Both the position numbers and the translations under genes were made by a program. A model generated the notes under the pieces. It saw only the letters and a list, made by a program, of their open reading frames with translations. It did not search any database and was not told the DNA's origin. A DNA stretch of 33,862 bases from Candidatus Methanoplasma sp. (GTDB lineage: Archaea; Thermoplasmatota; Thermoplasmata; Methanomassiliicoccales; Methanomethylophilaceae): assembly GCA_031283015.1 (NCBI GenBank), contig JAITCQ010000039.1, positions 1 to 33,862 on the forward strand, written 5' to 3'. This document shows, in pieces, positions 4,161 through 29,431 of the stretch. The first letter of the stretch is position 1, and each line of letters opens with the position of its first letter.

Positions 4161-4161
4161 C

Positions 4162-5031
4162 TCAGTTCACCGCCTCGACCTCTTCCCCGTCCTTTCTGCT
4201 TTCAAGCGAGGTGGGTATTCCGGGGACCTTCATCTCGATTATTATCTCTCCTCTCGGGAGCGCGGTCTGGCATATCTCCAGTCTTCCGTCCCTCACCAGG
4301 TGGAGTATGGCCACGAACGTCCTGAGATTCTCCATTATTTCCTTTGTGTAGAGCTCGTCGATCTGTATCGGACCCGTTCCAAGCTTGACTATCCTCTCCC
4401 AAACGTACTCCACGTCGCGCTTGTCATCCTCCTCGTGCGCTTTATTATCGAACTTCTTAGGAAGCTTCTCCTCCAGCTCGATCCTGACCCTTTCCCTCTC
4501 GCGGTGGACCTCCATCTCGGCCCTCGCTTCCTCGAACGCATCGAGCAGTTCGTACATCGTCACCGGGCGTACGGCGTCCCTGCTGTACGCCTCCCTGAAC
4601 GATACTTCCGGAACGATGAGCGCTTCGTCCTCGTCCTCAAGTGGGAAGTCGAAGAACTCCTCCTCCAGCGGCTCGTCGGATTTTGAGCATGTCGCCTCCG
4701 ATTGCAATCTGAGGACCCTCCAGGCCATCAGCATAAGTTTTCCGGCCACGATCATGTCGAACCGGTTCTCGGATACTTTCTTTGAGTACAGCCTCACGAA
4801 CTCTCTGAGGTCGATCTCCCACGGATCTATCCCGTTCTCCAGGACCAGGCTGAAGGCCGCCCTTATGGACTCGTCCACCGGATCGTTCAGCCTTTCGCCT
4901 GACCCGGCCTTGTCGAGTATGCCCATATACCCGCTTATCCTGGCGTATGCGTCGCTGTCCTCCGCCATTGCCTTATGGAACAGCAGATGCTGCTCCATGT
5001 CTTCTTTTTTCATCGTTTCATCCATTTGCAT
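4162..5031 (-). CDS. scpA: Segregation and condensation protein ScpA
   Basis: 289 aa kleisin-like protein (DPWEIDLREFVRLYSKKV...FDMIVAGKLMLMAWRVLRLQSE); adjacent to smc and scpB. The start could be the second ATG at 5025. Confidence 0.88.
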   Translation of the reverse strand: MQMDETMKKEDMEQHLLFHKAMAEDSDAYARISGYMGILDKAGSGERLNDPVDESIRAAFSLVLENGIDPWEIDLREFVRLYSKKVSENRFDMIVAGKLMLMAWRVLRLQSEATCSKSDEPLEEEFFDFPLEDEDEALIVPEVSFREAYSRDAVRPVTMYELLDAFEEARAEMEVHRERERVRIELEEKLPKKFDNKAHEEDDKRDVEYVWERIVKLGTGPIQIDELYTKEIMENLRTFVAILHLVRDGRLEICQTALPRGEIIIEMKVPGIPTSLESRKDGEEVEAVN

Positions 5032-5045
5032 CCCATCCTTTTTTA

Positions 5046-8000
5046 TTAAGTTTCCGTTTCCTGTTTTTTCAATGCTTCTTCTTCGTATTTCGATACCTCG
5101 GCAAGGTCCGGCTGCATTATCACTTTGCTTATGCCGGACGGCGGCCTGGTCACCCCGATGAGGTGGTCGGCGGTCGCCAGTGTTACTTTTCTTAATGATA
5201 CCTGTATGAACTGAGCTTTTCCGGAGCTTGATTTTACTCTTCTTGCGACCATCTCGGCGTTCACCGAATCCAGGAACATATCCACTTCGTCCAAAACGTA
5301 GAACGGGGACGGCTGGTACTCCTGGATCGCAAATATGAATGCTAACGCGGTAAGGGATTTCTCCCCTCCCGAAAGCGCCTCCAGCCTCAGCAGCTTGCCG
5401 TTCTTCGGTTTTGCGTTTATCGTCAGGCCTCCGAGGAACGGGTCGCTCTCGTTCTCCAGGCCCATGTACGCCTCCCCTCCGTCAGATAATTGGGAGTATA
5501 TCTGCCTGAAGTTCCTGTCCACGGCGTCGTACGACTGCATGAACAGACCCTTCTTCTGAGAGTTCAGCGATTCTGTGAGGTCGCCTAGCTCCTTGATCTG
5601 CTTCTTCAGCTTTCCGACGTCCTCCATCAGACTGTCGTATCTTGTCTTGCGTTCTTCGTAATCCTCTATCGCTCTCAGATTGACGTTGCCTATCCTCGAC
5701 AGGATATTCTCGCATGACCTTATCGTGCGTTTTATCTCCTCTTCCGAGGGTATCGGAAGATCCACCTTTACCTTGATCTCCGCTATTTCCGCTCTTATCT
5801 GTTCGAGGTTCTCTCTTACGATGATGATCTGAGCCTCGTTGGACGACCGCATTCCCTCTTTGACCTCTATCTTCTCCTGAACGGAGTCCTTCTCGCCGGA
5901 GAGCTTGAATCCTCTCTCCACAAGCGCGTCCTTTTCGTCCCTGAGGCCTTCGATGCCGGCTTCCATTTCGTTTTCGATCTTTCTCAAAGCTTCGAGATCG
6001 ATGGTTATCCTTTCCATCTCCTTCTCATAGGAAGCGATGTCGTCCCTGCTCGCTTTGAGTTTCTTCTCCGCGGATCTGAGCTGGGTTTCGAGGGAACTGC
6101 GCTGTTTGTTCAGACCGGCGATCTCAGTTTCCAGTGAGTTCTTCTGCGCGCGGATCTCCGATGACTCGTTGGAAAGCCTGTAAACGCTGTCCCTTACGCT
6201 CTGTATCCTTTCCTGCAATTCCGCCGGGGCGATCGACGCGATCCTCTCCCTGACCTCCGTCCTCTCGTTCCTCATCGCCGCCAAAGCGGACGATGTTCCG
6301 TCCAGATCGCGTTTCAGGTCGATCCGCTGCTTCTCGGCCTCGTCGCATTCCTTCTTCTTGGAGGAGACCGCGTCCACCAGCTGCTGCCTCGCCTTCTTCA
6401 GCTCTGTTATCTTCGCTGTGAGCTGTCCCATTTTTGCCTGGGCGCCCATGCCCGCGCTGGACAGCTTCCTCATCTCGTCGTCCATCGCGCGGATGTTATC
6501 CCTTATCTCCTTCAGCTTCACCCTCAAGATATCTAACGAATCGTTGGCCGCTCTTAATTTGGAGCCCACCTCATCAAGCCTGGATTCGGACGCGGCGCCG
6601 AACTTGAGCATGTTCTGGGGACTGAGCGTACCTCCGGTCATTGCGCCGGAGGCCTCCACCAGCTCCCCGCCCTTCGTGACCAGCCTTACTCCGCCCATTA
6701 GCGCTCTCGCTTCCGCTATCGTGTTGACGACCAGCGTATCCTGGAACACATACCAGAACACGTTCACGTATTTCTGATCGAAATCTATCAGGTCCGTGGC
6801 GTATCCTTCCGTCTGCTTGACGGTCATTATCGCCTTCGCCCTGGGTTTGCTGCTTACCATCTTGTTCAGCGGCAGGAACGTCACCCTGCCGAGCTTCTCC
6901 TTTTTGAGATATGATATGCAATCGGACGCCACTTGATCATCCGAGACGACGATCGCTCGCATCTTGCCGCCTGCGGCCACCGCAAGCGCGGTCTCGTAAC
7001 CGGGCTGGACGGTGGCCAGTTCCTGGACCGTTCCGTGGATCCCGGTGGCCATGCCCTTGTTCCTGAGCTCGATTATCGCGTCCACCGCCTCGTCGCCTTT
7101 GTTCATTCTGCTGGCGACCTTCTTCTCTGCGGCGAGCTCGCTATATTGGGAATCCAATCTTCGTATCGCTTCTTTAAGCTCCGACTCCTGTTTTTCGAGT
7201 TCGGCCTCTTTCCTTTTGGCTTCCATTATCTTCTTGGAGATGTCCTCCGCCCCGCCCATGGGGCCGGCCTCCTGTTTTATCTCCTTCAGGTTCCACTCCG
7301 CATCCTTTATATCAAAGTCCGCGGATTGGAGCCGCTCGTCCAAAGCGGCCTTCGATCTTTTCAGCTCCTCGGCCACCGCCTCCGCCTTGGCGGAGGCTAC
7401 TTCGGCGTCATGCTCCGCCTGTTCTTTGGAATCGATTTCCGCTTCCAGTTCGTTGAGCCTGTTCTGAAGCTTTGTGTGCTCCCCGCCGTGCTTAGAGATC
7501 TCCTCGCTTATCGCCGCATCCTCTTTCTTCGCGGCGGCCAGCTCCTTCTCGCTGCTTTCCAGCCTGGCCGTGACGTCAGCGAGGGCTCCTGTCAAATCCT
7601 TTTGTTCGGCCAGGTTCTTGCCGATATCCTCTTCCAGCTCCGCTTTAATCGTTTGCTGCTCTTCGATATCCTCTTCGGCCCGCTCCGTCCTGTCCTTCTG
7701 CATGGCCATGTCGATCTTGGCCTTTTCTATCTTGCCTTTGATCTCCTTGTACTCCGGACCGACCTGGTCCTCGATCTCCTTTTCCTTCGCTTTGATCGCA
7801 ACCTCGTTCTCGGCGTATTCCTTCTTCAGCGTTTCCTTCCTCTCGCTGAGCCTTACGATCTCGTTGGTCACGGCGGCGATCTGCTCGGTGAGGCCTTCGA
7901 GCTTGGCCTCCTCTATCTGCATCTGCCTGTGGACGAACTGCGCCTTGGCCATTTCCAAGAGCGCTTGGGTCTCGATGTACCTCTTGGCGTCCTCTTTGTC

Positions 8001-8636
8001 CTTTTCCAGTTTCTCGATCTGTTTCTCAAGCTCCTCGATGACTATGCCTATCCTTTCGAGATTCAGCTCCGCCTCCTGGCGCTCTCCCCTCGCTTTCTCC
8101 AGGTCGGCGTCGTAGCTCGCTATTCCGGAAATGGAGTCAAGAACCCTCCTTCTCTCCAGGTTGCCCATCTGCACTATCCGGGTAACATCGCCCTGCTGCA
8201 CCATGTTGTAGCCGTCGGCGCTTATCCTCGCCTTGGTGAGGAGGCTGTCGAACTCGGTCAGCGAGGACTTCCGGTCGTTGATGTAGAAGTACGAATTATA
8301 ATCGCTCTCGGCCTCCGTTGTCTTAACGTATCGGGTCAATCTTACAACGTCGTCGTCCCAAGGCATGATCCTGTCGGAGTTGTCGAAGACAAGCGAGACC
8401 TTCATGTAACTTGCCTTGCTCTTCGACTTTCCGCCGTCGAATATAAGATCGGTGAGCTTCCCGGCCCTTATGGCCTTGGAGCTCTTGGGCCCGAGCACGA
8501 AGAGGATTGCATCTGTGATATTCGATTTCCCGGAACCGTTCGGTCCGGTGATCGCCATGTAACCTTCCATCAGAGGGATGGTGAGCTTCCCCCCGAACGA
8601 TTTGAAGTTCTCTAGTTCTACTTGTTTCAGGTACAC
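5046..8636 (-). CDS. smc: Chromosome segregation protein SMC
   Basis: 1196 aa: Walker A GPNGSGKSN, hinge GIHGTVQELATVQPGYETALAVAAGG, signature LSGGEKSLTALAFIFAIQ, Walker B PSPFYVLDEVD, long coiled coils. GTG start at 8634-8636. Confidence 0.97.
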   Translation of the reverse strand: MYLKQVELENFKSFGGKLTIPLMEGYMAITGPNGSGKSNITDAILFVLGPKSSKAIRAGKLTDLIFDGGKSKSKASYMKVSLVFDNSDRIMPWDDDVVRLTRYVKTTEAESDYNSYFYINDRKSSLTEFDSLLTKARISADGYNMVQQGDVTRIVQMGNLERRRVLDSISGIASYDADLEKARGERQEAELNLERIGIVIEELEKQIEKLEKDKEDAKRYIETQALLEMAKAQFVHRQMQIEEAKLEGLTEQIAAVTNEIVRLSERKETLKKEYAENEVAIKAKEKEIEDQVGPEYKEIKGKIEKAKIDMAMQKDRTERAEEDIEEQQTIKAELEEDIGKNLAEQKDLTGALADVTARLESSEKELAAAKKEDAAISEEISKHGGEHTKLQNRLNELEAEIDSKEQAEHDAEVASAKAEAVAEELKRSKAALDERLQSADFDIKDAEWNLKEIKQEAGPMGGAEDISKKIMEAKRKEAELEKQESELKEAIRRLDSQYSELAAEKKVASRMNKGDEAVDAIIELRNKGMATGIHGTVQELATVQPGYETALAVAAGGKMRAIVVSDDQVASDCISYLKKEKLGRVTFLPLNKMVSSKPRAKAIMTVKQTEGYATDLIDFDQKYVNVFWYVFQDTLVVNTIAEARALMGGVRLVTKGGELVEASGAMTGGTLSPQNMLKFGAASESRLDEVGSKLRAANDSLDILRVKLKEIRDNIRAMDDEMRKLSSAGMGAQAKMGQLTAKITELKKARQQLVDAVSSKKKECDEAEKQRIDLKRDLDGTSSALAAMRNERTEVRERIASIAPAELQERIQSVRDSVYRLSNESSEIRAQKNSLETEIAGLNKQRSSLETQLRSAEKKLKASRDDIASYEKEMERITIDLEALRKIENEMEAGIEGLRDEKDALVERGFKLSGEKDSVQEKIEVKEGMRSSNEAQIIIVRENLEQIRAEIAEIKVKVDLPIPSEEEIKRTIRSCENILSRIGNVNLRAIEDYEERKTRYDSLMEDVGKLKKQIKELGDLTESLNSQKKGLFMQSYDAVDRNFRQIYSQLSDGGEAYMGLENESDPFLGGLTINAKPKNGKLLRLEALSGGEKSLTALAFIFAIQEYQPSPFYVLDEVDMFLDSVNAEMVARRVKSSSGKAQFIQVSLRKVTLATADHLIGVTRPPSGISKVIMQPDLAEVSKYEEEALKKQETET

Positions 8637-8645
8637 GTCTTTGAC

Positions 8646-8661
8646 CCCTTTTTTTAAAGGG
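8646..8661 (-). promoter_or_regulatory. Inverted repeat CCCTTT-N4-AAAGGG overlapping the smc ribosome-binding site
   Basis: + strand ccctttttttaaaggg; the GGGG of the SD-like AAAGGGG lies in one arm. Confidence 0.45.
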
Positions 8662-8730
8662 CAAACGAGCCTTTGACTCCGAATGCATCCCCGTGTCCGC
8701 GTGCGGACGCTATACAGTAATGCGTGCGTG

Positions 8731-8740
8731 ATATATAAAG
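8731..8740 (-). promoter_or_regulatory. Putative TATA box for smc
   Basis: CTTTATATAT on the - strand about 95-105 nt upstream of the smc GTG. Confidence 0.55.
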
Positions 8741-8808
8741 TAACAGTCTAAAAATGGGTTTAATAGGCCTTTTTTGGGCTGCCGACGGTTTTGTTTGGGT
8801 TATATCGG

Positions 8809-8876
8809 TTTGTTGTTTTGATAGAGTTATAACCCAATTGATTGGTGATTTTGTTGTTTTAATAGGGTTATAACCC
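8809..8876. repeat. Two 27-bp direct repeats ending in the palindrome GGGTTATAACCC
   Basis: 8809-8835 tttgttgttttgatagagttataaccc and 8850-8876 tttgttgttttaatagggttataaccc (25/27 identical); 8865-8876 is a perfect 12-bp palindrome. Confidence 0.85.
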
Positions 8877-15890: not shown

Positions 15891-16982
15891 TCACGGAAAG
15901 ATGCGTTTGCACCTGATGAGCTTGCCCATGCGCCTTGCGCCTAGAAGGCTCATTGTGATCTCCGTCCTTCTGTCGGATCTGAAAGCGAACTTGTCCGCCA
16001 TTCTCTTGCTGCTTGCTGCGATCTTCAGAGGTTTGCGGAATATCCTCTCGCATTCGTCCTGATAATCCGTAAGGCTGCGTCCGCTGACCACGCTGTCCCC
16101 GGCGACCTCCCCGCATGCCCTGCCCGCGATGAGCGCAAGCGGCAACCCGCCTCCGCTCACTGGTATCACTTGGCCGGCCGCGTCTCCCGCGAGCAGTCCG
16201 TTCCCGGATACTATCTTGGGCAGCATCCCCTCGCTCGGAACGTATTTCCCTTCGAGTTTTGTTGTTATCTCAAGACCGTGCTTCGCTCTGAACCTCTCGA
16301 AATAATCGCTCAGAGTTCCGTCCGCAAATTTGGGGGAAAGTCCGATACCTACGTTCGCCTGCCCTTTCTTCGGGATCATCCAACCGTATGCTCCAGGAGC
16401 TATCCCCCCGAAGAACATCTGAACGTACGGGTCGAAGTCTCCTTTCGCCTGAGCGGTCACCGCGGGGTACGGATTGCCGTTCCCCGGAAGGCCTAACGCC
16501 TTTGCGGTCTTCGAACCGGGGCCGTCCGCGCCGACGATCACTTTATACTCTATATCACCGAGTGACGTGACCGCTTTTCCGTTCTCTATTTTTTTGAAGT
16601 GGCAGTTCGTGATCAGTTCCGCGCCTTCTTTCTCCGCCTCTGACACTATATGCTTGTCGAACCTGTCCCTTTCCATCGTATATCCGGAGAAGTCCAGCAG
16701 CCTCTCCTTCCCTTTCGGGTCAATGAGCTTTATCCCTTCGATCTCCCTCAGTCGGAGATGCTTCGGCAGATCGAACAGAGACGCTATATTCCCGGCGTTG
16801 GGGAACATCGTCAGGATCTCCTCGTCCGAGGGCATCAGCTCGCCGCATCTCACCGGGACGCCGACCTCCGGCCTCCTTTCAACGATAGTAACATTCGCGC
16901 CCTTTGCCGCCGCATACCTGGCCGCCGTTCCGCCGGCGGGTCCCGACCCTATGACGAGAATGTCTGTTCTCATCGTGCCCAT
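15891..16982 (-). CDS. Geranylgeranyl reductase family FAD-dependent oxidoreductase
   Basis: 363 aa; ILVIGSGPAGGTAARYAAAKGANVTIVERR, VGADGPGSKTAKALGL, LLAGDAAGQVIPVSGGGLPLALIAGR; SD AGGTGAT before ATG 16982. Confidence 0.92.
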   Translation of the reverse strand: MGTMRTDILVIGSGPAGGTAARYAAAKGANVTIVERRPEVGVPVRCGELMPSDEEILTMFPNAGNIASLFDLPKHLRLREIEGIKLIDPKGKERLLDFSGYTMERDRFDKHIVSEAEKEGAELITNCHFKKIENGKAVTSLGDIEYKVIVGADGPGSKTAKALGLPGNGNPYPAVTAQAKGDFDPYVQMFFGGIAPGAYGWMIPKKGQANVGIGLSPKFADGTLSDYFERFRAKHGLEITTKLEGKYVPSEGMLPKIVSGNGLLAGDAAGQVIPVSGGGLPLALIAGRACGEVAGDSVVSGRSLTDYQDECERIFRKPLKIAASSKRMADKFAFRSDRRTEITMSLLGARRMGKLIRCKRIFP

Positions 16983-16986
16983 TTAA

Positions 16987-17952
16987 TCACCTGTCGCGGT
17001 CCGCGATATAGTGGGAAAGATCGATCAGGGACTTTTTGTAAACGGAATCCTCGACCTCGTTGAGGAATGATATCGAGTCGCCCGCGATCGCTTTCGCTTT
17101 CTCCGAACATCTTCTGATCGCGTCGGTCTTTTTTATAAGACGGATGGCCTCGGAAACCTCCTGCCATCCGAGCTCTTTCTTTCGGAAGAGGTCCTTTATC
17201 GTGTCGCCGTGGGCAGGGTCCTGCATGGCGTATATCGTGGGGAGGGTGGGTTTCCCTTCCATTATGTCGCTTCCGATCCTTTTTCCGGTAGTGTGTTCGT
17301 CGCCGATCACATCCAGCATGTCATCCACGATCTGGAACGCTATGCCGGTCCTGAAAGCGAACTCGCCCACATCGTGAATGGTCTGCTCGCCGGCCCCCGC
17401 CAGGAACGAGCCTATCTTCGCGCCGCACTCGATCAGCCTTGCCGTCTTACCCTTGATTATTTTCATATAGTCTTCTTCGGACACGGCGGCGTTGTGCTCG
17501 AAGGCTTTCTGCTCGAATTCGCCCGCGCTCATAGCCGTGGACGTGTCGACGATGAAATCCACCACTTCGTGCGATGCCGATCCTATCAATCTGTAACCGA
17601 GGGCGAACATGAAGTCGCCCGCAACTATGGACTTCCCGATGGAATATTTCTTGTATGCGGCCTGGGCACCTCTCCTCAGCTCGCCCTGGTCGTTGATGTC
17701 GTCGTGAACCAGCGTTGCGTTATGGATTATCTCGATGGCGGTCGCCACGTCTATGGCCTTCTTCGGATCCTTTCCGCCACATGCGCGGAAGGCCAGAAGG
17801 CACATTGACGGGCGGATCCTCTTGCCGTTCGAGCCGAGGACGTAATCGCATATCTCCGTGAGCTCGGGATTTCCAGACCTTACGGTGTTCCTCATAAGTC
17901 TCTCTACCTTCTCCAGGTCCTCCGAGATTGAAGAATACCAAGGCTCATCCAT
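16987..17952 (-). CDS. idsA: Polyprenyl (GGPP/FPP-type) diphosphate synthase
   Basis: 321 aa; ATLVHDDINDQGELRRG and IVDDMLDVIGDEHTTGKRIGSDIMEGKPTLP. Product chain length not determinable by eye. Confidence 0.92.
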   Translation of the reverse strand: MDEPWYSSISEDLEKVERLMRNTVRSGNPELTEICDYVLGSNGKRIRPSMCLLAFRACGGKDPKKAIDVATAIEIIHNATLVHDDINDQGELRRGAQAAYKKYSIGKSIVAGDFMFALGYRLIGSASHEVVDFIVDTSTAMSAGEFEQKAFEHNAAVSEEDYMKIIKGKTARLIECGAKIGSFLAGAGEQTIHDVGEFAFRTGIAFQIVDDMLDVIGDEHTTGKRIGSDIMEGKPTLPTIYAMQDPAHGDTIKDLFRKKELGWQEVSEAIRLIKKTDAIRRCSEKAKAIAGDSISFLNEVEDSVYKKSLIDLSHYIADRDR

Positions 17953-18097: not shown

Positions 18098-19597
18098 TTA
18101 ACCGCCGAACAGGACCGACGCCGCGTCCGCGCAGAAATCCATGATGAGCTGCGGGAACACTCCAAGCAGGACCACGAACACCAGGCAGAACACGATCGCC
18201 GCCGTGAATGTATGCGGGACCTTGATCCTTTCGGTAGACGGTCCTTTCTCAATGAGCATGGCCTTCACCACCCTTGTGTAGTAGTACAGGGAGATCGCGG
18301 AGTTCAGCACCGCCACGAACGCCAGCCAGATCCACTGGGTCATGACCCCGCCGTCGTATATCGCCGACGAGAACAGGAATAACTTCGACGTGAATCCCGC
18401 CAGCGGCGGGATGCCCGCGAGAGAGAACAGGAACAATGTCATCGCGATCGCGAGGAACGGCGCCCTTTTCAACAGGCCTTGGTAGTCTGATATCTTCTCT
18501 CCTATGCCGACGGTGATCAGCGCGCCGACAATCAGGAACGCTCCTCCTTTCATGAACACGTGGGTGAACATGTGGAACATGCCTGACGCGAGCGCGTACT
18601 CGCTCATGACCGCCATCACTATCAGGATGTAACCGGCCTGTGCGATGCTGGAATATGCCAGCATCCTTTTGATGTTGTTCTGGGATATTGCGACGACGTT
18701 ACCCACGGTCATGGTGATCGCCGCGATTATCGCGAAGATGTACTGCATCTCCTCTGTGGCGAACGCCGCCGTGGAACTCGCGGCGGCGAATATCACCAAG
18801 AAGACCTTGAACAGCGCCACGAACCCCACTTTCTTGGACCCTGTTCCTAAGAACATCGAGACCGGCGTCGCCGCTCCTTCGTACACGTCGGGGGCCCACA
18901 TATGGAACGGGACCGCCGCGATCTTGAAGCCGAATCCCGCGATCATGGTTATCATGGCTATGCCGAACGCCCAGCTGAAGTCTTGCGTGGACAGAGCGGC
19001 TGCGATATCCGAGATGTTCGTTGTCCCTGCCACGCCATAGAGCATGGACAGGCCGTACAATGTCAAGGCTGTCGACAGACCGCCGATGATCACGTACTTC
19101 ACCGCCGCCTCCGCGGCCCTCGGGTCGCTCCTCTTCATCGCGACGAGCACATACGAGGTGATACTCGCAAGCTCGATGCCCAGGAAGATTGTTATCAGGT
19201 CGCTTGCCGTCGCGACGAACATCATACCGACCGACGCCGAGAGCAGCAGCGAGTTGAATGCGCCGTAGTGCATCCTCGTGGTCTCTGAGCTTGAAACGGA
19301 GACCAGCGCGGTGACGAACACCACTATCTGGAACAACAGTATCATCACACCCGAGAATGCGTCATATGCGAACAGATCGGCATAACCGCCCTGATATCCG
19401 TCGACCATCATCAAGATGTTGAAGAACACCGAGACCAGGATCACTGCGATGGCGGTTGCCGCGACCGCGCTTCTCCTCTTTGACGCGAAGAACACGGCGG
19501 GCATCACCAATGCGCCCAGTATCAAGACGATCATAGGCGCCAGCGGGGTGAATTCCCCAAATATCGTTGTTACGATAGAGCCGTCGAACATCATCAT
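18098..19597 (-). CDS. fpoN: F420H2 dehydrogenase-like/complex I subunit FpoN (NuoN family)
   Basis: 499 aa multi-TM antiporter-like subunit; LGIELASITSYVLVAMKR, FKIAAVPFHMWAPDVYEGAATPVSMFLGTGSKKVGF. Start uncertain between 19597 and 19591. Confidence 0.93.
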   Translation of the reverse strand: MMMFDGSIVTTIFGEFTPLAPMIVLILGALVMPAVFFASKRRSAVAATAIAVILVSVFFNILMMVDGYQGGYADLFAYDAFSGVMILLFQIVVFVTALVSVSSSETTRMHYGAFNSLLLSASVGMMFVATASDLITIFLGIELASITSYVLVAMKRSDPRAAEAAVKYVIIGGLSTALTLYGLSMLYGVAGTTNISDIAAALSTQDFSWAFGIAMITMIAGFGFKIAAVPFHMWAPDVYEGAATPVSMFLGTGSKKVGFVALFKVFLVIFAAASSTAAFATEEMQYIFAIIAAITMTVGNVVAISQNNIKRMLAYSSIAQAGYILIVMAVMSEYALASGMFHMFTHVFMKGGAFLIVGALITVGIGEKISDYQGLLKRAPFLAIAMTLFLFSLAGIPPLAGFTSKLFLFSSAIYDGGVMTQWIWLAFVAVLNSAISLYYYTRVVKAMLIEKGPSTERIKVPHTFTAAIVFCLVFVVLLGVFPQLIMDFCADAASVLFGG

Positions 19598-21111
19598 ACC
19601 GCCCCCAGCGTCAAAGCGAGAGAGGACGCGTAGTCTTTAATGAACCCGAGCGCCAGGTCCGGCCAGAGACCGAACAGCGCGATCAGAGCGCATGTTGCTC
19701 CGAGCGCGACCACTTCCGGTCTGCTAAGGTCATGTATGTGCGTGAGGTCGATCTTCGTGGTAAGCCTTCCGAATAGGGTCCTCTGCGCCGCCCATAGATA
19801 GTAACCTGCGGTCAGCAGGAGGGTGATCAGACAGAACGCGATCAGCCATATCATGTCTATCGAGACGGTATACTCGTAGAACGAGAATATTATCCCGAAC
19901 TCCGCCCAGAACCCTACGAGGCCGGGAAGCCCCAGGGACGCCAGGAATCCGAACATCATGAACGCCGCGAACACCGGGAGTTTCCCGGCGAGTCCTCCGA
20001 GGAGGGGTATCTCTCTTGTCCCTATGTTGTGGCCCGCCGCTCCGGCGACCATGAACAATACGGCGGAGATCAGACCGTGCGCGAACATCTGGAACACCGC
20101 GAATTGGATCCCAATATCAGAAAGGCACGCCATTGCGATCATGACCATACCCATATGGCTGATCGACGAGAACGCCACCATTTTCTTGAGATCCTTCTGA
20201 GCGATGCAGGCGTATGCGCCGTATACCATCGCCAGGATGCCGATGAACACCATCGTCATCTGCCAGGCCTGCGCCCCGTCCGGGAGCAGTTCCAGACACA
20301 CTCGGATTATACCGTAGGAACCCATCTTAAGCATGACTCCCGCCAGCAGGACCGATCCTGCGGTGGGTGCCTCTGTGTGTGCGTCCGGCAACCATGTGTG
20401 GAACGGCACGATCGGCATCTTTACCGCGAATCCGAAGAACAGCAGTCCGAACACCAGCGTTTGGAATGTGGTGCTGAACGCCGCGCTCCCGGCGAGTACG
20501 GCCGCGAACGAGAAGTCCACCGTGCCTCCGCCGGCCGCTCCGAACACTATCGCGAATATCCCGATCAGCATGACCAGGCTCGCCACGTGCGTGTAGATGA
20601 AGAACTTGATCGCGGCGTAGTGCCTCCTCGGGCCGCCGAACCACGCTATCAGGAAATACATCGGGATCAGGGTGACCTCCCACAGGATGTAGAACAGGAA
20701 GTAGTCTCCCGCCATGTACACGCCCATCAATCCCACTTCCATCGCCAGCAGAAGGGCGAAGAAATAATGCGGCCTGTCGTGCTCGCGGGCCGAGAACACC
20801 GTCGAGAGGAAGACCAGCACGCCCGTCAGGAATACCATCAGGATGCTCAGGCCGTCCACCGTCAGTATGTACGACATCCTGACGCCGGCGGTCTCTATCC
20901 AAGTGTAACTTTCGTTGTATACGGAAAGATCGGGAGTGAACAGCAGCACCAAGGAAAGCACCATGGCGATGCCCGAGAACGTCCCCGCGACGTATTTGGC
21001 ATACTTTTGTCTCTCCCCGCCCATCGCCAACGTCGCGACCGCTCCGATGAGCGGCACGACCAGCAGAAGGGTCAGCAGATACGGTATCTCGAACGGGAAT
21101 TCAAAGAACAT
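19594..21111 (-). CDS. fpoM: Fpo-like complex subunit FpoM (NuoM family)
   Basis: ORF 19594..21144, start at 21111 with GGAGGTG; YILWEVTLIPMYFLIAWFGGPRRHYAAIKFFIYT, FAVKMPIVPFHTWLPDAHTEAPTAGSVLLAGVMLKMGSYG. Confidence 0.95.
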   Translation of the reverse strand: MFFEFPFEIPYLLTLLLVVPLIGAVATLAMGGERQKYAKYVAGTFSGIAMVLSLVLLFTPDLSVYNESYTWIETAGVRMSYILTVDGLSILMVFLTGVLVFLSTVFSAREHDRPHYFFALLLAMEVGLMGVYMAGDYFLFYILWEVTLIPMYFLIAWFGGPRRHYAAIKFFIYTHVASLVMLIGIFAIVFGAAGGGTVDFSFAAVLAGSAAFSTTFQTLVFGLLFFGFAVKMPIVPFHTWLPDAHTEAPTAGSVLLAGVMLKMGSYGIIRVCLELLPDGAQAWQMTMVFIGILAMVYGAYACIAQKDLKKMVAFSSISHMGMVMIAMACLSDIGIQFAVFQMFAHGLISAVLFMVAGAAGHNIGTREIPLLGGLAGKLPVFAAFMMFGFLASLGLPGLVGFWAEFGIIFSFYEYTVSIDMIWLIAFCLITLLLTAGYYLWAAQRTLFGRLTTKIDLTHIHDLSRPEVVALGATCALIALFGLWPDLALGFIKDYASSLALTLGAV

Positions 21112-21112
21112 C

Positions 21113-23167
21113 TTAAGCACCTCCCATGAAATAGAACAGAACAAGCATCACCGCAAATAACGATACGATGCCGAACATCACCACGGCCGCATAGTCGCGC
21201 ATGTTGCCGGTCTGCATCTTGCCGATGGAGTCCCCGCTTCCGGCGACCGCCGAGGACAGTGCGTTGACCGTCCCGTCCACCACCTGCGTGTCCACGAACT
21301 CCACTCCCCTGGCGACGCCGTTCCCAAGCTTCCATCCTATCTGATCGTAAAGCTGTGGGAACCACCATCTGTTGGATAATGCCCGATATATCATCGAGCT
21401 GCCGTTCTTGTTGAGTTTTCCGGGGTCCACAGACATCTTGCTGTACATGAAGTACGCTATGCCTATCGCCGCCAGCACCAGCGCGATCGTCAGGTAGGTG
21501 TATATGCTCATGAATATGTCCTCGAGCCATCCTTCCAATCCGTGCCCGTGTCCCGAGCCGAGCTGGAACTCTCCGACGTGGTTGATCCCTATCGTTACGT
21601 ATTCGTCGAATCCGAACAGCAGTATCGCGCCCAGCGCGGCCGCGAAGGGCGCCAGTATGATCAGCGGCACGGTCATGCTCTTCGGGGACTCCCCGTGGCA
21701 GTGCTCCGTTCCGTGTCCCGGCTTTCCCTTGAAGGTCATGAACCACATGCGGAACATGTAGAACGCCGTCATGAACGCCGTTACGATCGCCAGTATCCAC
21801 ATGATCGTGAACAGGTATCCTTCCGCGCCGTAGTCTCCCGCGTGCATCACTGTCTCCAGAACAAGCTCTTTCGACCAGAATCCGCTGAAGAACGGGAATC
21901 CCGCGATAGACAGGGAACCGATCAGCATGGTGATCGACGTTATTTTCATCTTACCATGAAGCCCGCCCATTTCTCTCATATCCTCCGTGCCGGTGGAATG
22001 TATCACCGATCCGGAACCTAGGAAAAGCAGAGCTTTGAAGAACGCATGGTTCACCATATGCAGGCATCCCGCGGTGTAACCTATCGCCCCGATCGCCATC
22101 AGGTGGTGGTCGTGGGTCTGCATTCCGAGCGCCATCATGTATCCGCCGGCGCCCAGCGCGAGGAACATGTATCCCAGCTGGGATAACGTTGAGTACGCAA
22201 GCACTTTCTTTATGTTCATGTTGTTCAGCGCCATCGTCGCGGCGAAGAACGCCGTTATTCCTCCGATGACCCCCACGAACAGCATGACCTCTGGGTTCTG
22301 CGTGAACAGCGGGAAGCATCTCGCTACGAGGAACACTCCCGCCTTGACCATGGTCGCCGCATGTATCAGCGCGGAGACCGTAGTGGGACCCGCCATCGCA
22401 TCCGGAAGCCAGTCCAGGAGCGGGAACTGCGCGCTCTTTCCTATCACGCCTCCGAATATCAGGAGGCTTCCGAGCATGATCATGCTCGGGTCCACCGCCG
22501 CCATAGCGGAAGCATCGAACACCGCCGCATAGTCGAGACTGCCGAATTCGTACAGCAGCACGAACATCCCTCCCATCAGGCATACGTCTCCGAGCCTGGT
22601 GACAAGGAACGCCTTCTTGGCCGCGGAAGCGGCCACATCCGTGGCGTCGTCGCCCTTGGGGTGATCGAATCCCCAGAATCCTATCAGGAGGTACGAGCAC
22701 AGGCCCATGGCCTCCCAGAACACGAACATCTCGAGGAAGTTGCTTGAGATCGCCAGCCCCAGCATTCCGGTTAGGAACAGGGACACTTGAGCGTAATATC
22801 TTCTCTTCTTCGCGCCCTCCCCGTGCATGTACCCTATTGAGTAGACGAATATCAGCGTCGAGATGAACGACGCGAACATCATCACGAGACAGGAAAGGCT
22901 GTCGATGTAGTATCCTATGTTTATATCGAAACTTCCGATCGAGAACCATGTGATCTGCGCCGTCACGTATCCGGGGTCCGCGTATGCGGAGGATGTGAAG
23001 AACTCATATGATATGAGTACCGAAAGGACGCATGCGAACAGCGCCCCGAAGACCGCCAGCGGGCCTCCGCCCTCCGGCATCTTCTTTCCTAGGAACCCTA
23101 TGGCCACGAAACAGAGAACGGGGACCAGCGGGACCAGCCAAGTGTATTCTATGAACATCCTTACCAC
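21113..23167 (-). CDS. fpoL: Fpo-like complex subunit FpoL (NuoL family)
   Basis: 684 aa; FVFWEAMGLCSYLLIGFWG, GKSAQFPLLDWLPDAMAGPTTVSALIHAATMVKAGVFLVAR, NMNIKKVLAYSTLSQLGYMFLALG. Confidence 0.95.
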   Translation of the reverse strand: MVRMFIEYTWLVPLVPVLCFVAIGFLGKKMPEGGGPLAVFGALFACVLSVLISYEFFTSSAYADPGYVTAQITWFSIGSFDINIGYYIDSLSCLVMMFASFISTLIFVYSIGYMHGEGAKKRRYYAQVSLFLTGMLGLAISSNFLEMFVFWEAMGLCSYLLIGFWGFDHPKGDDATDVAASAAKKAFLVTRLGDVCLMGGMFVLLYEFGSLDYAAVFDASAMAAVDPSMIMLGSLLIFGGVIGKSAQFPLLDWLPDAMAGPTTVSALIHAATMVKAGVFLVARCFPLFTQNPEVMLFVGVIGGITAFFAATMALNNMNIKKVLAYSTLSQLGYMFLALGAGGYMMALGMQTHDHHLMAIGAIGYTAGCLHMVNHAFFKALLFLGSGSVIHSTGTEDMREMGGLHGKMKITSITMLIGSLSIAGFPFFSGFWSKELVLETVMHAGDYGAEGYLFTIMWILAIVTAFMTAFYMFRMWFMTFKGKPGHGTEHCHGESPKSMTVPLIILAPFAAALGAILLFGFDEYVTIGINHVGEFQLGSGHGHGLEGWLEDIFMSIYTYLTIALVLAAIGIAYFMYSKMSVDPGKLNKNGSSMIYRALSNRWWFPQLYDQIGWKLGNGVARGVEFVDTQVVDGTVNALSSAVAGSGDSIGKMQTGNMRDYAAVVMFGIVSLFAVMLVLFYFMGGA

Positions 23168-23463
23168 CTCATGGACGTGAGGCTGTCAGCCTCGATCGTG
23201 TTCTTTATCTTGTAAGCGTTGAGCAGTATCGCTATTCCGACGGCGACCTCCGCCGCCGCGACGGAGATCGACATTATCACGAACACCTGCCCCAACACAT
23301 CCGTCGTGAACGCCGAGAAGACGATAAAGTTGATGTTCGCCGCATTGAGCATCAGTTCGATGCACATCAGGACCACGATCGTGTTGCTCTTCACCGCCAC
23401 GCCGTACGCCCCGATGGCGAAGAGAACAGCCGCGAATATCAGATAGACCTCAATCGGTATCAT
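23161..23463 (-). CDS. fpoK: Fpo-like complex subunit FpoK (NuoK family)
   Basis: MIPIEVYLIFAAVLFAIGAYGVAVKSNTIVVLMCIELMLNAANINFIVFS; NuoK signature. Start chosen at 23463. Confidence 0.93.
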   Translation of the reverse strand: MIPIEVYLIFAAVLFAIGAYGVAVKSNTIVVLMCIELMLNAANINFIVFSAFTTDVLGQVFVIMSISVAAAEVAVGIAILLNAYKIKNTIEADSLTSMRW

Positions 23464-23743
23464 CGTGCTCACCCTCCTCTCTCGCGATGCAAACACCGCC
23501 GATCATGGCGCCGAACATCAGCAGCGCCAGTATCAGCAGCAACGGGCCGTACTTTTCGAACAAGGCGTAGTTGAGCGAGTTCGGATCCATGTTGCCGTCC
23601 TCGTCCGTAACGCCTATGAAGTCTATGCCTTCTGGGGACTCGTTGGTAACGTGGTCGTCCCAGTCCGTCATCATCACCGATAAGGCGAGCACCGTCAGCA
23701 GCATCGCCGCTACGCATACTCCCATCGCGGTCTTCTTATTCAT
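23450..23743 (-). CDS. fpoJ: Fpo-like complex subunit FpoJ, C-terminal part as separate gene
   Basis: 97 aa, two TM segments, located between fpoK and the NuoJ N-terminal ORF; LLLILALLMFGAMIGGV. Confidence 0.8.
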   Translation of the reverse strand: MNKKTAMGVCVAAMLLTVLALSVMMTDWDDHVTNESPEGIDFIGVTDEDGNMDPNSLNYALFEKYGPLLLILALLMFGAMIGGVCIAREEGEHDDTD

Positions 23744-24065
23744 CGGAACCGCCCTCCTTGCGCATTATGTATCTTCTAGTAAGCATGATGCTGAACGCGA
23801 ACAGTATGGTGATCGCACCCACGTACACCAGCATCTGGATCACACCGATGAACTCCGCCTCCAGGAAGAAGTACGTGACCGCCACGCACACGAACACCAG
23901 CGCGAGATAGAACGCGCTGTGCACAACCTCTTCCGAGGACACCACATACAATGCGGCGGCTATGGCTATCGCGGCCAATACGACAAAGGCCACTAGGTCC
24001 GTGTTCGCCCAGAGGTACCCCATCACATTGCAGAATCCGTCCCAAATATTGTCCAGGATCTCCAT
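23736..24065 (-). CDS. fpoJ: Fpo-like complex subunit FpoJ, N-terminal part (NuoJ family)
   Basis: VVSSEEVVHSAFYLALVFVCVAVTYFFLEAEFIGVIQMLVYVGAITILFAFSIMLTRR; NuoJ core. Start at 24065. Confidence 0.9.
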   Translation of the reverse strand: MEILDNIWDGFCNVMGYLWANTDLVAFVVLAAIAIAAALYVVSSEEVVHSAFYLALVFVCVAVTYFFLEAEFIGVIQMLVYVGAITILFAFSIMLTRRYIMRKEGGSDE

Positions 24066-24808
24066 TATAGCACCTCGTTTATGTAGAGGGCGTCCTTGGG
24101 ACAATCCTCCACGCAATTCTCACAACATATGCAGGTGTCGTTGTTGAACTCGGGGTAGAGTATCGGTCTGCCCTTCTCATTCACTCCGTGCTCGACCATC
24201 GTGACGGCCTTCACGGGACACACCTTCTCGCATCTCTTGCAGCTTATGCACTTGGCCTCCACGAGGACCGGCCTGTCGGTCTTGAACGGCGATATCCTCC
24301 TTTCGGGGTTCCCGTTCTTTATGTCCGACATCAGGGTCTGTTCCAGATGGATCTCCATCCTTTCCGTTATACCCTCGTAGGCCAGCCTCTTCGGGCCGTA
24401 TATCAGGTCCTCCCTCGTATACTCCGCGAGTTCGAACTCGGGGGTGACGGTCATCGCGTCCACCGGGCAGTATTCCGCGCAGTATCCGCACATGGCGCAC
24501 CTTCCGACGTTGACCTGCGGCCTCTTGACCTTCTGGCCGGAGCCGTCCTCGGTGTCCACCAGCTTGATACAGGCAGTGGGACACATCTTGACGCACATCC
24601 CGCAGGCGACGCATCTGTCGAACCTGAGTCCGGGGCGTCCGCGGTAGTTCTCCGGCATCCACATCTTCTCGTAAGGATACAGGATCGTCACCGGTCTGTG
24701 CGCGATCGTCTTGAAGAAGATCTTGAGGGCCTTCGACACCGGCTTCATCACCCAGAGGGACCTTGCCGGGTTCCTCGGGTACTTGTCCAAGTATTCTTTC
24801 TTGGCCAT
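24065..24808 (-). CDS. fpoI: Fpo-like complex subunit FpoI with four [4Fe-4S] motifs (extended ferredoxin subunit)
   Basis: 247 aa; CVACGMCVKMCP, CAMCGYCAEYCP, CISCKRCEKVCP, CICCENCVEDCP; the N-terminal half matches NuoI, the C-terminal half is an additional 2[4Fe-4S] ferredoxin domain. Confidence 0.92.
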   Translation of the reverse strand: MAKKEYLDKYPRNPARSLWVMKPVSKALKIFFKTIAHRPVTILYPYEKMWMPENYRGRPGLRFDRCVACGMCVKMCPTACIKLVDTEDGSGQKVKRPQVNVGRCAMCGYCAEYCPVDAMTVTPEFELAEYTREDLIYGPKRLAYEGITERMEIHLEQTLMSDIKNGNPERRISPFKTDRPVLVEAKCISCKRCEKVCPVKAVTMVEHGVNEKGRPILYPEFNNDTCICCENCVEDCPKDALYINEVL

Positions 24809-25980
24809 CAGAACACACCTCCTAGTTTAAGCAGCAGCACGACCGCAAGGTTCGCTACCGACAGCGGCATGAACACCTTCCAGCCTATGTTGACTATCTG
24901 GTCGGTCCTGACACGCGCGAGCGCTCCCCTCAGTATTATCATTATGAAGAACACCGACCATACCTTCAGAAGGAACACTATCTCCGGGAACCAGCCGTTA
25001 ACGCCTCCGGAGACGAAGGGTATCAGCCATCCTCCCAGATACATTATGACCACCATTGCGCAGGAGACGTATCCTCTCAGATAGTCCGCTAGCATGATGA
25101 GTCCCCATTTCATTCCCGCGTACTCGGTCTGCCATCCCTCCACGAGTTCCGCCTCTGCCTCGGCAATGTCGAACGGTACGCGTTCGGCCTCGGCGGTGGC
25201 GCAGAAGATGAAGGTGATGAAACCGATTATCTGGGGTATGAAGAACCAGATCGTGTCCCCCTGCATGTTGACTATATCGTTTATATTGAAGCTTCCGGCC
25301 AGCAGACAGGTGGAAGCTATCATGATGAGCATCGGGACCTCGTACGAGATCATCAGCTCGGCCGCCCTCATCCCTCCGATGAGCGAGTACTTATTGTTCT
25401 GCGCCCACCCGGAGACGAGGATGAAGAACGGCGCCAGCGCGAACAGCGCCATTATTATTAGCAGGCCGGTTCCGTAATTGACGACGAACCATCTGTCGGA
25501 AAGCGGGATCATGCATGCGATCAGCGCCGAGGTGCCGATTATGAGGGCCGCCGTCCAAAGGTACGTCTTCTTGTCGACCTTCCTCGGGATGGTGTTCTCT
25601 TTCAAAAATGTCTTGAATCCGTCGGCCAGGCACTGCATGAATCCTTTGAGTCCGATCATGGTGCCTCTTCTGTCCATGACCCTTCCCAGGACCTTACGTT
25701 CCATCCACAACGATAGCAGAGTGACGACGAAGACCACCAGGAAGATTATGATCATGAACACTACCAGAGCGAACACGTTGGAGATCTCGTCCGACATCAG
25801 CCAGACCGATACCCCGTTCCCAGGGAAAATGAGATTTATGAGCCAGGCGATGAGCCCTCCCAACAGCTCCCATATCTTGTACGATAGGTCAAAGGGAAGG
25901 TTATAGCTCTCAAAGGGATAGAAGGGGTTGGACATCACGTCCTTGAACTGTATCCAATCCAAAATACTGCTGTACGCCAT
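24808..25980 (-). CDS. fpoH: Fpo-like complex subunit FpoH (NuoH family)
   Basis: 390 aa; MERKVLGRVMDRRGTMIGLKGFMQCLADGFK, ATAEAERVPFDIAEAEAELVEGWQTEYAGMKWGLIMLADYLRGYV. Confidence 0.95.
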   Translation of the reverse strand: MAYSSILDWIQFKDVMSNPFYPFESYNLPFDLSYKIWELLGGLIAWLINLIFPGNGVSVWLMSDEISNVFALVVFMIIIFLVVFVVTLLSLWMERKVLGRVMDRRGTMIGLKGFMQCLADGFKTFLKENTIPRKVDKKTYLWTAALIIGTSALIACMIPLSDRWFVVNYGTGLLIIMALFALAPFFILVSGWAQNNKYSLIGGMRAAELMISYEVPMLIMIASTCLLAGSFNINDIVNMQGDTIWFFIPQIIGFITFIFCATAEAERVPFDIAEAEAELVEGWQTEYAGMKWGLIMLADYLRGYVSCAMVVIMYLGGWLIPFVSGGVNGWFPEIVFLLKVWSVFFIMIILRGALARVRTDQIVNIGWKVFMPLSVANLAVVLLLKLGGVF

Positions 25981-25984
25981 ATTA

Positions 25985-27130
25985 TCACCTGTCGGTCTCT
26001 CCCAGGCACATGTCTATCATGGCCATCACCGCGGGCACATCGGCGATCCTGCTTCCCAGGACCAGCGGCTTGGCGGCGGATACGTTCACAAATATGGGGC
26101 TGCGCACTTTCAGTCTGTATGGTTTGTCGGTGCCGTCGGAGATCAGATACATCATGGACTCCCCGCGGGGGTCCTCCATCCTGACGAACGCCCTTCCGGC
26201 GGGAACCTTCGAGGGCACCTTGAGCCTGTACGGGGCGTTCCTGCCGATGGCCTTGACCTTCTGCAGACACTGTTTGATTATCTTACACGACTGGAACAGC
26301 TCTTCGATCCTGACCATGTATCTGGCGTACGAATCCCCCTCTTTAAGCACGGGAACCTCGAAATCCATCTTGTCATAGTTGTCGTAGGGGTCGTCGCGGC
26401 GTACGTCGAAATCCACGCCGGTGCCCCTCATGGCCGGTCCGGTGATGCCCAGATTGGCGCACTGCTCCCTCGAAAGGATGCCTGTGCCTTTCATCCTCGA
26501 AACGAACACCGAGGAGTCGTCGATCATCGCGATTATATCCCATATCGCTTTCTCAAAGCGCTCCACGCACCTTGAGGCGAACATTGCGAACTCGTCGTCG
26601 ATATCGTTCCTCACTCCTCCGATACGGGGGAAGTTGGTGGTCATCCTTGCGCCGCACATCCTTACGTTGAGGTCCATGAAGAACTCCCTCTCCCTCATTG
26701 CCCAAAGGAATACCGTGAGGTTCCCGAGGTCGGTCCCCACCGCGGCGAGCCACATGAGGTGCGACTGGATGCGGCAGATCTCGTCCGCCATTATCCTGAT
26801 GTATTTGGCCTTCTCCGGTATGTCTATACCCAGCGCCTTCTCGACCGTCATGCAGTACAGGTGGGTGTACGTCATGGACGCCGCGTAGCAGAGACGGTCC
26901 GCCATCGGTATGATCTTCGGATACGTCCTGTTCTCGCATTCTTTCTCCCACCCTCTGTGCAGGTAGCCGATGATCGGCTCCGCGTCCACCACTATCTCTC
27001 CGTCAAGCCGGGCTTTGAGCGTCCAGAGTCCGTGCGAGAATGGGTGCTGCGGGCCCATGATGACCCACATCTTGTCCGTGTGGAGCTCGGAGGTCTCGGC
27101 CTTTATGTCTATAACGTCCCGAGACATCAT
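25985..27130 (-). CDS. fpoD: Fpo-like complex subunit FpoD (NuoD family)
   Basis: 381 aa; MGPQHPFSHGLWTLKARLDGEIVVDAEPIIGYLHRGWEKECENRTYPKIIPMADRLCYAASM; C-terminal LVLGSRIADVPAVMAMIDMCLGETDR. Confidence 0.95.
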   Translation of the reverse strand: MMSRDVIDIKAETSELHTDKMWVIMGPQHPFSHGLWTLKARLDGEIVVDAEPIIGYLHRGWEKECENRTYPKIIPMADRLCYAASMTYTHLYCMTVEKALGIDIPEKAKYIRIMADEICRIQSHLMWLAAVGTDLGNLTVFLWAMREREFFMDLNVRMCGARMTTNFPRIGGVRNDIDDEFAMFASRCVERFEKAIWDIIAMIDDSSVFVSRMKGTGILSREQCANLGITGPAMRGTGVDFDVRRDDPYDNYDKMDFEVPVLKEGDSYARYMVRIEELFQSCKIIKQCLQKVKAIGRNAPYRLKVPSKVPAGRAFVRMEDPRGESMMYLISDGTDKPYRLKVRSPIFVNVSAAKPLVLGSRIADVPAVMAMIDMCLGETDR

Positions 27131-27597
27131 CCCTGCCCCCTTAGCTTATATGATTTCCTGAAAGGATAGAACTCATAGGTGTCCGGCGTAAGGAGCCTCT
27201 CCAGCTTCGGGTGTCCGTCGAAGACTATCCCGAACAGTTCGTAGGTCTCCCTCTCGTGCCAGTTCCCTCCTACCCATATGTCCGCCACCGATCTTACGTG
27301 AAGATTGTCCGCGGGCAGTTCGACGGTGAGCTCGATCATGACCCCGTTGAAATAGTTGGACAGATGGTAGATCACTTCCATGCGGTCGACCATGTCGTTA
27401 CCCATTATCGAGGTCGCGTGCTCGAACGTCAGATTGTCGTGTATGTAGGCGCATACGTCGTGGATGGAATCCCTCTCCACTTTTGCGTACACCCTTCTCT
27501 CTCCGGTGCGGGTGATCCCGACCTTGCCGGAGAAATTCTTCAGGAGGAGGTCAGATATCTCCTGGACCGACGATGCCTGATATGTCTCGCCAGCCAT
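27127..27597 (-). CDS. fpoC: Fpo-like complex subunit FpoC (NuoC family)
   Basis: MAGETYQASSVQEISDLLLKNF...; IWVGGNWHERETYELFGIVFDGHPKLERLLTPDTYEFYPFRKSY. Start chosen at 27597. Confidence 0.93.
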   Translation of the reverse strand: MAGETYQASSVQEISDLLLKNFSGKVGITRTGERRVYAKVERDSIHDVCAYIHDNLTFEHATSIMGNDMVDRMEVIYHLSNYFNGVMIELTVELPADNLHVRSVADIWVGGNWHERETYELFGIVFDGHPKLERLLTPDTYEFYPFRKSYKLRGQG

Positions 27598-27599
27598 GT

Positions 27600-28163
27600 T
27601 CAGTCCTCCATGAATACCCCTCTCCTGAAGTAGTCGTCTATCTTCTTCTGGAGGAGCATGAAACCGTCTATCATCGCGTCCGGCCTTGCGGGACATCCCG
27701 GTATGTAGATGTCCACCGGGACTATTTGGTCCAGACCCTGGACCGTGTTGTACGAATCGTACCACGGTCCGCCGGATATGGCGCATTCTCCCATCGCCAC
27801 CACCCATTTGGGGTTCGGTATCTGTTCATACAGGCGCCTCAGGTCCGGGCGTATCTTTTTGGAAATCCAGCCGTTCACGAGGAGCACGTCGGTCTGCCTC
27901 GGGGAGGACCTGTATATCATGCCGTAACGCTCCGCATCGAACCTGGGCGCGGACGCCGCCGCCATTTCCAGGGCGCAGCATGCCAGCCCCCAGTGCAGAG
28001 GGTGTATTGAATTTCTCATCGCCCAGGCCCAAATGGGTCCCGTGAGCTTGTCTACGGTCTTCTTCGTACCTCCGCTGAGAAGGTTGTTGATCATGGCCGA
28101 GGACCACGTCATGAATTCCTCTTTGCTCATGGCGACGGCGTGAGGATAAAGGCTCATATCCAT
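27600..28163 (-). CDS. fpoB: Fpo-like complex subunit FpoB (NuoB family)
   Basis: LHWGLACCALEMAAASAPRFDAERYGMIYRSSPRQTDVLLVNG, WVVAMGECAISGGPW, VDIYIPGCPARPDAMIDG. Start chosen at 28163. Confidence 0.95.
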   Translation of the reverse strand: MDMSLYPHAVAMSKEEFMTWSSAMINNLLSGGTKKTVDKLTGPIWAWAMRNSIHPLHWGLACCALEMAAASAPRFDAERYGMIYRSSPRQTDVLLVNGWISKKIRPDLRRLYEQIPNPKWVVAMGECAISGGPWYDSYNTVQGLDQIVPVDIYIPGCPARPDAMIDGFMLLQKKIDDYFRRGVFMED

Positions 28164-28516
28164 ACTGTTTCCTCCTTTTTGAGAGAGTACGCTACCCCGA
28201 GGATCATTATACCCAGCAGCAGGAGCATCCATACGGTGGCCATGGTCGAAAGACCTGAGAAGGCGACGGCCCAAATCATGAGGAAGGTTGCGATGAGATC
28301 AAAGACCACGAAAATGATTGCGAAAGCATAATACTGGAATCTGAACTGTACGTGAGCGTCCCCTATCGGTTCGGAACCGCACTCGTATGTATTCTCCATC
28401 CACTGGGTAGGCTTCCTCGGTCTGATGAACCTAGAACTCAGCCATGCCAAAGGTGCGAAGCCGAAGGCCATGAGGCCGACGACAACCAATGGGATGTAGG
28501 ACACAACTAGTGACAT
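28154..28516 (-). CDS. fpoA: Fpo-like complex subunit FpoA (NuoA family)
   Basis: MSLVVSYIPLVVVGLMAFGFAPLAWLSSRFIRPRKPTQWMENTYECGSEPIGDAHVQFRFQYYAFAIIFVVFDLIATFLMIWA. Start at 28516. Confidence 0.94.
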   Translation of the reverse strand: MSLVVSYIPLVVVGLMAFGFAPLAWLSSRFIRPRKPTQWMENTYECGSEPIGDAHVQFRFQYYAFAIIFVVFDLIATFLMIWAVAFSGLSTMATVWMLLLLGIMILGVAYSLKKEETVWI

Positions 28517-28535
28517 TGAGATTTCGCATGCCTTC

Positions 28536-28548
28536 TTTAATATATAAT
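28536..28548 (-). promoter_or_regulatory. Putative TATA box of the fpo operon
   Basis: - strand ATTATATATTAAA centred about 27 nt upstream of the fpoA ATG. Confidence 0.6.
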
Positions 28549-28572
28549 GTTTGCAGACGCGCGTTTTCTTCC

Positions 28573-28582
28573 CTATATAAAC
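28573..28582 (+). promoter_or_regulatory. Putative TATA box of proC
   Basis: ctatataaac about 50-58 nt upstream of the ATG at 28631. Confidence 0.6.
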
Positions 28583-28630
28583 GACATACGACAGTTTATT
28601 ATCGGTAAGGAAGATACATCGCCAGATATC

Positions 28631-29431
28631 ATGCCGGTAAAGATAGGTTTCATTGGGGCTGGAAGGATGGCGGAGGCGATGATGAGGGGGCTCATCGCGG
28701 AGGGCGTTTACACCGAGAAGGAGATGATCGCCTGTGATCCGATAGCCGAGATCAGAGAAAGAGTGGCCAAAAATCTGGGTGTCGCCGTGTATGAGACGGC
28801 TTCCGAGGTGTCGAAACTGACGAACGTGCTGGTCATAGCGGTCAAACCGGTGCACGTGTCCGGACTTTTTGAGAAGGAAGGTCTCAAACTTGGGTCCAAT
28901 TATCTGATCATAAGTATAGCCGCGGGCATCGGGATCCGTACATACGAATCATATGTGCCAGATGCGAGAATTGTGCGCGTTATGCCGAACCACTGCTGCA
29001 TGGTCCTGGAATCCGCTTCGGCTTATTCCCGCGGAAGCAGGGCCACCGACGCCGACATAGACCTCGTTGACGAGATATTATCGTCAATGGGATTGGCCTT
29101 CGAGGTAAAGGAGGGGGACCTGGATGCCGTGACCGGCGTTTCCGGAAGCTCCCCCGCATTCATGTACATGTTCGCGGAAGCGATCGCCGACATCGGAAAG
29201 AAGAATGGCCTTCCGGGGGATGTGGCGCTGGAGCTTGCCGCCCAATCTATGATCGGCGCGGGCAGGATGATGCTTGAGAGCGGGATGACCCCCAAAGAAC
29301 TGGTCGACAGCGTATGCTCTCCGGGAGGCACGACCATAGAGGGAGTGAAAGTGCTGGAAGATCGGAAACTGAAGGGGATCACCGGGGAGGCGGTCGAGGC
29401 CGCCATAAAGAAATCGCGGTCAATGGGCTGA
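28631..29431 (+). CDS. proC: Pyrroline-5-carboxylate reductase
   Basis: MPVKIGFIGAGRMAEAMMRGLI..., VIAVKPVHVSGLF, VRVMPNHCCMVLESASAYSRGS, DAVTGVSGSSPAFMYMFAEAIADIG, VCSPGGTTIEGVKVLE. Confidence 0.94.
   Translation: MPVKIGFIGAGRMAEAMMRGLIAEGVYTEKEMIACDPIAEIRERVAKNLGVAVYETASEVSKLTNVLVIAVKPVHVSGLFEKEGLKLGSNYLIISIAAGIGIRTYESYVPDARIVRVMPNHCCMVLESASAYSRGSRATDADIDLVDEILSSMGLAFEVKEGDLDAVTGVSGSSPAFMYMFAEAIADIGKKNGLPGDVALELAAQSMIGAGRMMLESGMTPKELVDSVCSPGGTTIEGVKVLEDRKLKGITGEAVEAAIKKSRSMG

Follow-up and report, generated by a model that had tools for sequence, protein, structure and literature searches.

Known members of the NuoI/Nqo9/TYKY family of complex I subunits (TIGR01971) have a single dicluster ferredoxin domain. 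NdhI of photosynthetic NDH-1, a complex that is headless and ferredoxin fed, has two clusters, and NDH-1 relies on additional subunits, NdhS among them, for ferredoxin. Serial 2[4Fe-4S] domains within one chain occur in the polyferredoxins MvhB and FwdF, which are not complex I subunits and whose domains act as bridges in the MvhB and FwdF complexes.

Among methanogens, the Fpo complex of the Methanosarcinales uses FpoF (PMC9478090). Several reports list fpoI or an Fpo-like complex, record that FpoF and FpoO are missing, and suggest ferredoxin oxidation and a contact with HdrD (PMC4153887, PMC5011839, PMC7374477, PMC6019823, PMC10804542). A review describes the Fpo complex of M. luminyensis as ferredoxin-oxidising (PMC7374477), and two sources state that Methanomassiliicoccales have HdrD without HdrE and propose that HdrD binds the Fpo-like complex (PMC7374477, PMC10804542). 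In term-matched passages of the open literature, FpoI was nowhere said to have a second dicluster domain, and searches for wording of that kind gave no results; an earlier description is possible.

A four-cluster FpoI in a headless complex I operon

The window, by which we mean the whole stretch of 33,862 nucleotides of Candidatus Methanoplasma DNA analysed here, encodes an FpoI that differs from these known subunits in having a second, C-terminal dicluster domain and hence four clusters rather than the two of NdhI. The features discussed below are as follows.

18098 to 28855, minus strand: fpoABCDHIJ(N)J(C)KLMN operon, encoding an 11-subunit headless complex I
24065 to 24808, minus strand: fpoI/nuoI, 247 amino acids with four CxxCxxCxxxC motifs (open reading frame, NCBIfam and Pfam matches)
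24437 to 24637, minus strand: canonical NuoI 2[4Fe-4S] domain, residues 58 to 124, with expected N6a/N6b clusters (TIGR01971, AlphaFold)
24278 to 24379, minus strand: linker of 34 residues, residues 144 to 177
24071 to 24274, minus strand: extra C-terminal 2[4Fe-4S] domain, residues 179 to 246 (Pfam Fer4_7, invariant cysteines, AlphaFold)

A sequence-only reading of the window had assigned four motifs to positions 24065 to 24808, and both the coordinates and the motifs are correct; a stop interrupts the translation of the plus strand, and the gene is encoded on the minus strand. The motifs are CVACGMCVKMC (C66) and CAMCGYCAEYC (C104) in the canonical domain and CISCKRCEKVC (C187) and CICCENCVEDC (C226) in the C-terminal domain. 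Residues 28 to 142 matched the NCBIfam NuoI model TIGR01971 at 162.1 bits, above its cut-off of 113.05, and the two N-terminal CxxCxxCxxxCP motifs of that family are present (C66 to C76 and C104 to C114), while the best stretch for Pfam Fer4_7 was residues 186 to 240. The protein also aligned, over residues 26 to 145, with the Methanosarcina-type FpoI model NF040612, which describes a subunit of an Fpo-type complex in 135 positions, but the score of 111.1 bits was below the cut-off of 180. That NuoI and FpoI normally carry two clusters, as the same reading held, agrees with the listed NCBIfam FpoI and NuoI models, which have 121 to 220 positions, and with the solved NuoI and NdhI chains, none of which aligns past about residue 161. 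By sequence, the closest solved chain was NdhI of NDH-1 (6hum_I). A plasmid search returned no record reaching 80% query coverage.

The gene sits between fpoH and fpoJ, as nuoI does between nuoH and nuoJ, and read from the sequence it overlaps the stop of fpoH (TGATG) and the start of fpoJ-N (TAATG). Subunits A, B, C, D, H, I, J, K, L, M, and N are all encoded in the operon, and neither fpoF nor nuoEFG was recognised among its open reading frames. The complex that contains this FpoI is headless, and in this it differs from Fpo proper (F420H2 dehydrogenase), which has the FpoF input subunit. Searches with PF04432 (FrhB/FpoF) and PF01512 (NuoF) gave no match in the window's own genome (83% complete) or in a single-contig genome of the same genus (G071). 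Within the order, one genome (G001) has a single NuoF-like gene, on a separate contig, and proteins with an FrhB domain occur in 14 of the 147 genomes. Two of these were scored, at 113 and 107 bits against the FpoF cut-off of 475, so that no protein scored in the order came near the cut-off; they adjoin HdrA-like and glutamate-synthase-like genes. By eye, the FrhB homologues L067 (G005) and L069 (G001) lie away from fpo within an HdrA/FrhB/glutamate-synthase-like cluster, and the second homologue of G001 (L068) lies in an apparent surface-polysaccharide region that is likewise away from fpo.

Several other features of the window and of related operons were observed. The fpoJ gene is divided into two open reading frames (23450 to 24065, minus strand), J-N (PF00499) and then J-C, a division that several relatives and other members of the order share. 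Directly downstream of fpoN (15891 to 17952, minus strand) are, by eye, a geranylgeranyl reductase-like flavoprotein gene and a GGPP synthase-like gene, which perhaps serve a membrane-soluble carrier or lipids. Elsewhere the window encodes a GmrSD-type (type IV) restriction endonuclease with PF03235 and PF07510 (12735 to 14804, minus strand) and a probable surface protein of 961 amino acids with GLUG-motif repeats (307 to 3192, minus strand). The complex I operon of one Thermoplasmata MAG (L053, G456) contains two consecutive FpoM-like open reading frames (2330 to 5380, minus strand).

Conservation and predicted structure of the second domain

An FpoI match was found in 130 of the 147 genomes of the order, or in 73 of 74 when only high-quality genomes are counted. 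Nearly all of these alignments extend to the C-terminus; those that do not are fragments, several of them truncated at contig ends. A scan of GTDB genomes was assessed on the best 80 of 342 relatives, 79 of which had all four motifs and the last of which is interrupted by a contig end. Judging by titles or matching contigs, all of the best 80 of 342 loci are from Thermoplasmatota; one that is titled Methanomicrobia (L108) clusters by score with the Methanomassiliicoccales. The window protein was aligned with 65 of these best 80 of 342 loci, and across the resulting 66 diverse homologues all 16 cysteines were invariant, including the 8 of the extra domain. The second domain is therefore real and constrained, and its origin as a chance or frameshift artefact is excluded by this conservation. 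It is very unlikely, in our estimation, that the domain is a structural element or an electron buffer off the main electron path. Headless complexes with two clusters do exist without it, but the invariance of 8 of 8 extra ligands over a long divergence is hard to explain without cluster binding, and a six-cluster extension, described below, also exists.

The AlphaFold model of FpoI had a mean pLDDT of 81, about 90 in the extra domain and in most of the canonical one, and a pTM of 0.67. A Foldseek search against solved chains found none sharing the two-domain arrangement; FwdF aligned over both domains with an rmsd of ~23 Å, and the arrangement of its domains thus differs. FwdF and MvhB were among the best non-NuoI sequence matches, and the domain is spread broadly over organisms with and without mcrA, observations that would suit extra clusters that dock a dedicated donor enzyme, for example an Mvh/Hdr complex or a 2-oxoacid:ferredoxin oxidoreductase, instead of free ferredoxin. 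We consider such docking unlikely, given that in the compared operons the neighbours of fpoI are fpoH and fpoJ and no donor gene adjoins it.

The extra domain probably arose when the NuoI domain was copied in tandem. When the C-terminal profile was searched against six genomes, its top match beyond itself lay in all six cases within the same protein, in its NuoI domain (43 to 56 bits), with other ferredoxins in those genomes reaching at most 41.6 bits, and it is this best non-self match that suggests duplication. Profiles of the two domains align with 99.7% probability, as any two dicluster ferredoxins would, and a firm tree of the duplication cannot be built from domains of only 67 residues.

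Distribution and evolutionary origin

Across 390 Thermoplasmatota genomes searched by profile, proteins were classed by where the match ended. The four-cluster class, in which it ran to the end of the profile, comprised families f1 to f6 (the order), f7, f11, f13, f18, f20, f24, and f40; the two-cluster class, in which it ended at about position 145 to 170, comprised f8, f9, f10, f14, f25, and many others. Both classes were verified by reading representative proteins. The four-cluster families include Marine Group III (f24; L097, and L107, which is titled Poseidoniia), the Thermoplasmata MAGs RS_9_17 and RS_5_45 (f13 and f20), and MAG nzgw66 (f40). In f11, the NuoI-family subunit, encoded in a headless complex I operon, has six CxxCxxCxxxC motifs (L059, G365, 7944 to 8867, plus strand). 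Four-cluster FpoI is thus found throughout the Methanomassiliicoccales and also in Marine Group III and other Thermoplasmatota. Outside the order, the four-cluster genomes sampled contained no McrA, FrhB/FdhB, or NuoF domain in searches of families other than f40, and no genome tested combined the four-cluster form with FpoF. Headless complexes of the same taxonomic class in f9, f10, and f14 have an ordinary two-cluster NuoI, so the extra clusters are not required for headless or FpoF-less function.

In a maximum-likelihood tree of concatenated FpoB, FpoC, FpoD, and FpoH (midpoint root; some inner nodes weak, at 49), the four- and six-cluster complexes all fell into a single group, supported at 88. 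The sole two-cluster member of that group was f14, weakly placed (37) beside f7. This pattern is consistent with one gain of the extra domain and perhaps one loss, and the gain appears to predate the divergence of the methanogens.

The sequence-only reading had proposed that the added domain could be an entry module in place of FpoF. Part of this stands, namely that the domain is genuine, that the complex is headless, and that none of the proteins scored in the order came near the FpoF cut-off. A methanogen-specific replacement is not supported, however, as the same domain occurs in non-methanogenic Thermoplasmatota without mcrA, such as Marine Group III; FpoF replacement as the origin of the domain is excluded by its presence in lineages that lack mcrA and any FrhB domain.

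The link to heterodisulfide reductase that the same reading suggested is not supported either. In such a scheme the extra domain would be an exit or bridge to HdrD, making Fpo and HdrD a single ferredoxin:heterodisulfide oxidoreductase. HdrD is present in the order, including the window's own genome (L168), and in f11, f13, and f20; the published proposal of HdrD binding would fit, and the linker between the two domains of FpoI, 34 residues in the window and 30 to 36 in the Methanomassiliicoccales, is 16 to 18 residues longer in that order than the 14 to 16 of Marine Group III, f13, f20, and f40. Against this, the domain occurs in lineages without a full-length HdrD homologue (no match at 1e-10 in 8 of 9 f7 genomes, nor in f18), and the best match in Marine Group III is only ~30% identical, lies in a protein of ~670 amino acids, and is shared with two-cluster lineages. 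The gain of the domain also appears older than the methanogens, and with an exit at the entry end the pump would be bypassed. We regard the bridge to HdrD as quite unlikely, and HdrD docking as the origin of the domain is excluded by f7, f18, and Marine Group III. Given these lineages and those without mcrA, the origin of the domain lies neither in HdrD docking nor in a substitution for FpoF in methanogens; methanogens may now use it in either way.

The HdrD of the genus (L168, G000 contig 34, 71 to 1924, minus strand) is encoded in an open frame of 589 to 618 amino acids. Its core is followed by a long stretch rich in Ala, Glu, and Lys and then by a C-terminal domain of ~100 residues, in which no Pfam family exceeded its cut-off; in the other families of the order, the frames that encode HdrD have 413 to 451 amino acids.

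A possible route for electron entry

We consider it reasonably probable that FpoI is a NuoI-family subunit whose dicluster domain was duplicated in tandem in an ancestor shared by some of the Thermoplasmatota and that its second domain is a polyferredoxin-like relay built into the cytoplasmic end of the complex I, which is headless and fed by ferredoxin. The presumed donor, soluble ferredoxin in its reduced form, would dock on or near the second domain. From the two extra clusters electrons would move to the canonical NuoI pair, and from there by way of N2 in FpoB to the membrane carrier, driving proton pumping. The distance between the extra and canonical clusters would have to be short enough for tunnelling, as we infer it to be, and the relay would lengthen the electron wire of the headless complex. 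The best reading, and the one that fits every lineage, is a relay that links cytosolic ferredoxin to the canonical clusters, with putative docking of ferredoxin at the extra domain, and a six-cluster form such as that of f11 would be expected of a modular relay. Two observations count against the relay. The net charge of the extra domain has a median of −1 (−3 in the window protein), so the domain is not basic and offers no obvious docking site for an acidic ferredoxin, and the existence of two-cluster headless complexes makes the extra domain unnecessary for input without FpoF or NuoEFG.

More tentatively, an archaeal lineage may have acquired its input to complex I by duplicating the NuoI ferredoxin domain in tandem and not through a removable module, giving four- and six-cluster arms fused to a core subunit that methanogens later reused for ferredoxin-driven heterodisulfide reduction. 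In the open literature searched, no such fused input design is described for complex I.

The finding bears on how headless complex I obtains electrons in methyl-reducing methanogens and in many uncultured archaea, for which the conserved, genetically fused second ferredoxin domain is a concrete and removable candidate entry site. It also corrects a methanogen-specific reading of the trait, which appears to be older than methanogenesis in this branch, and the extra domain of Marine Group III leads to the prediction that ocean archaea have a respiratory chain fed by ferredoxin.
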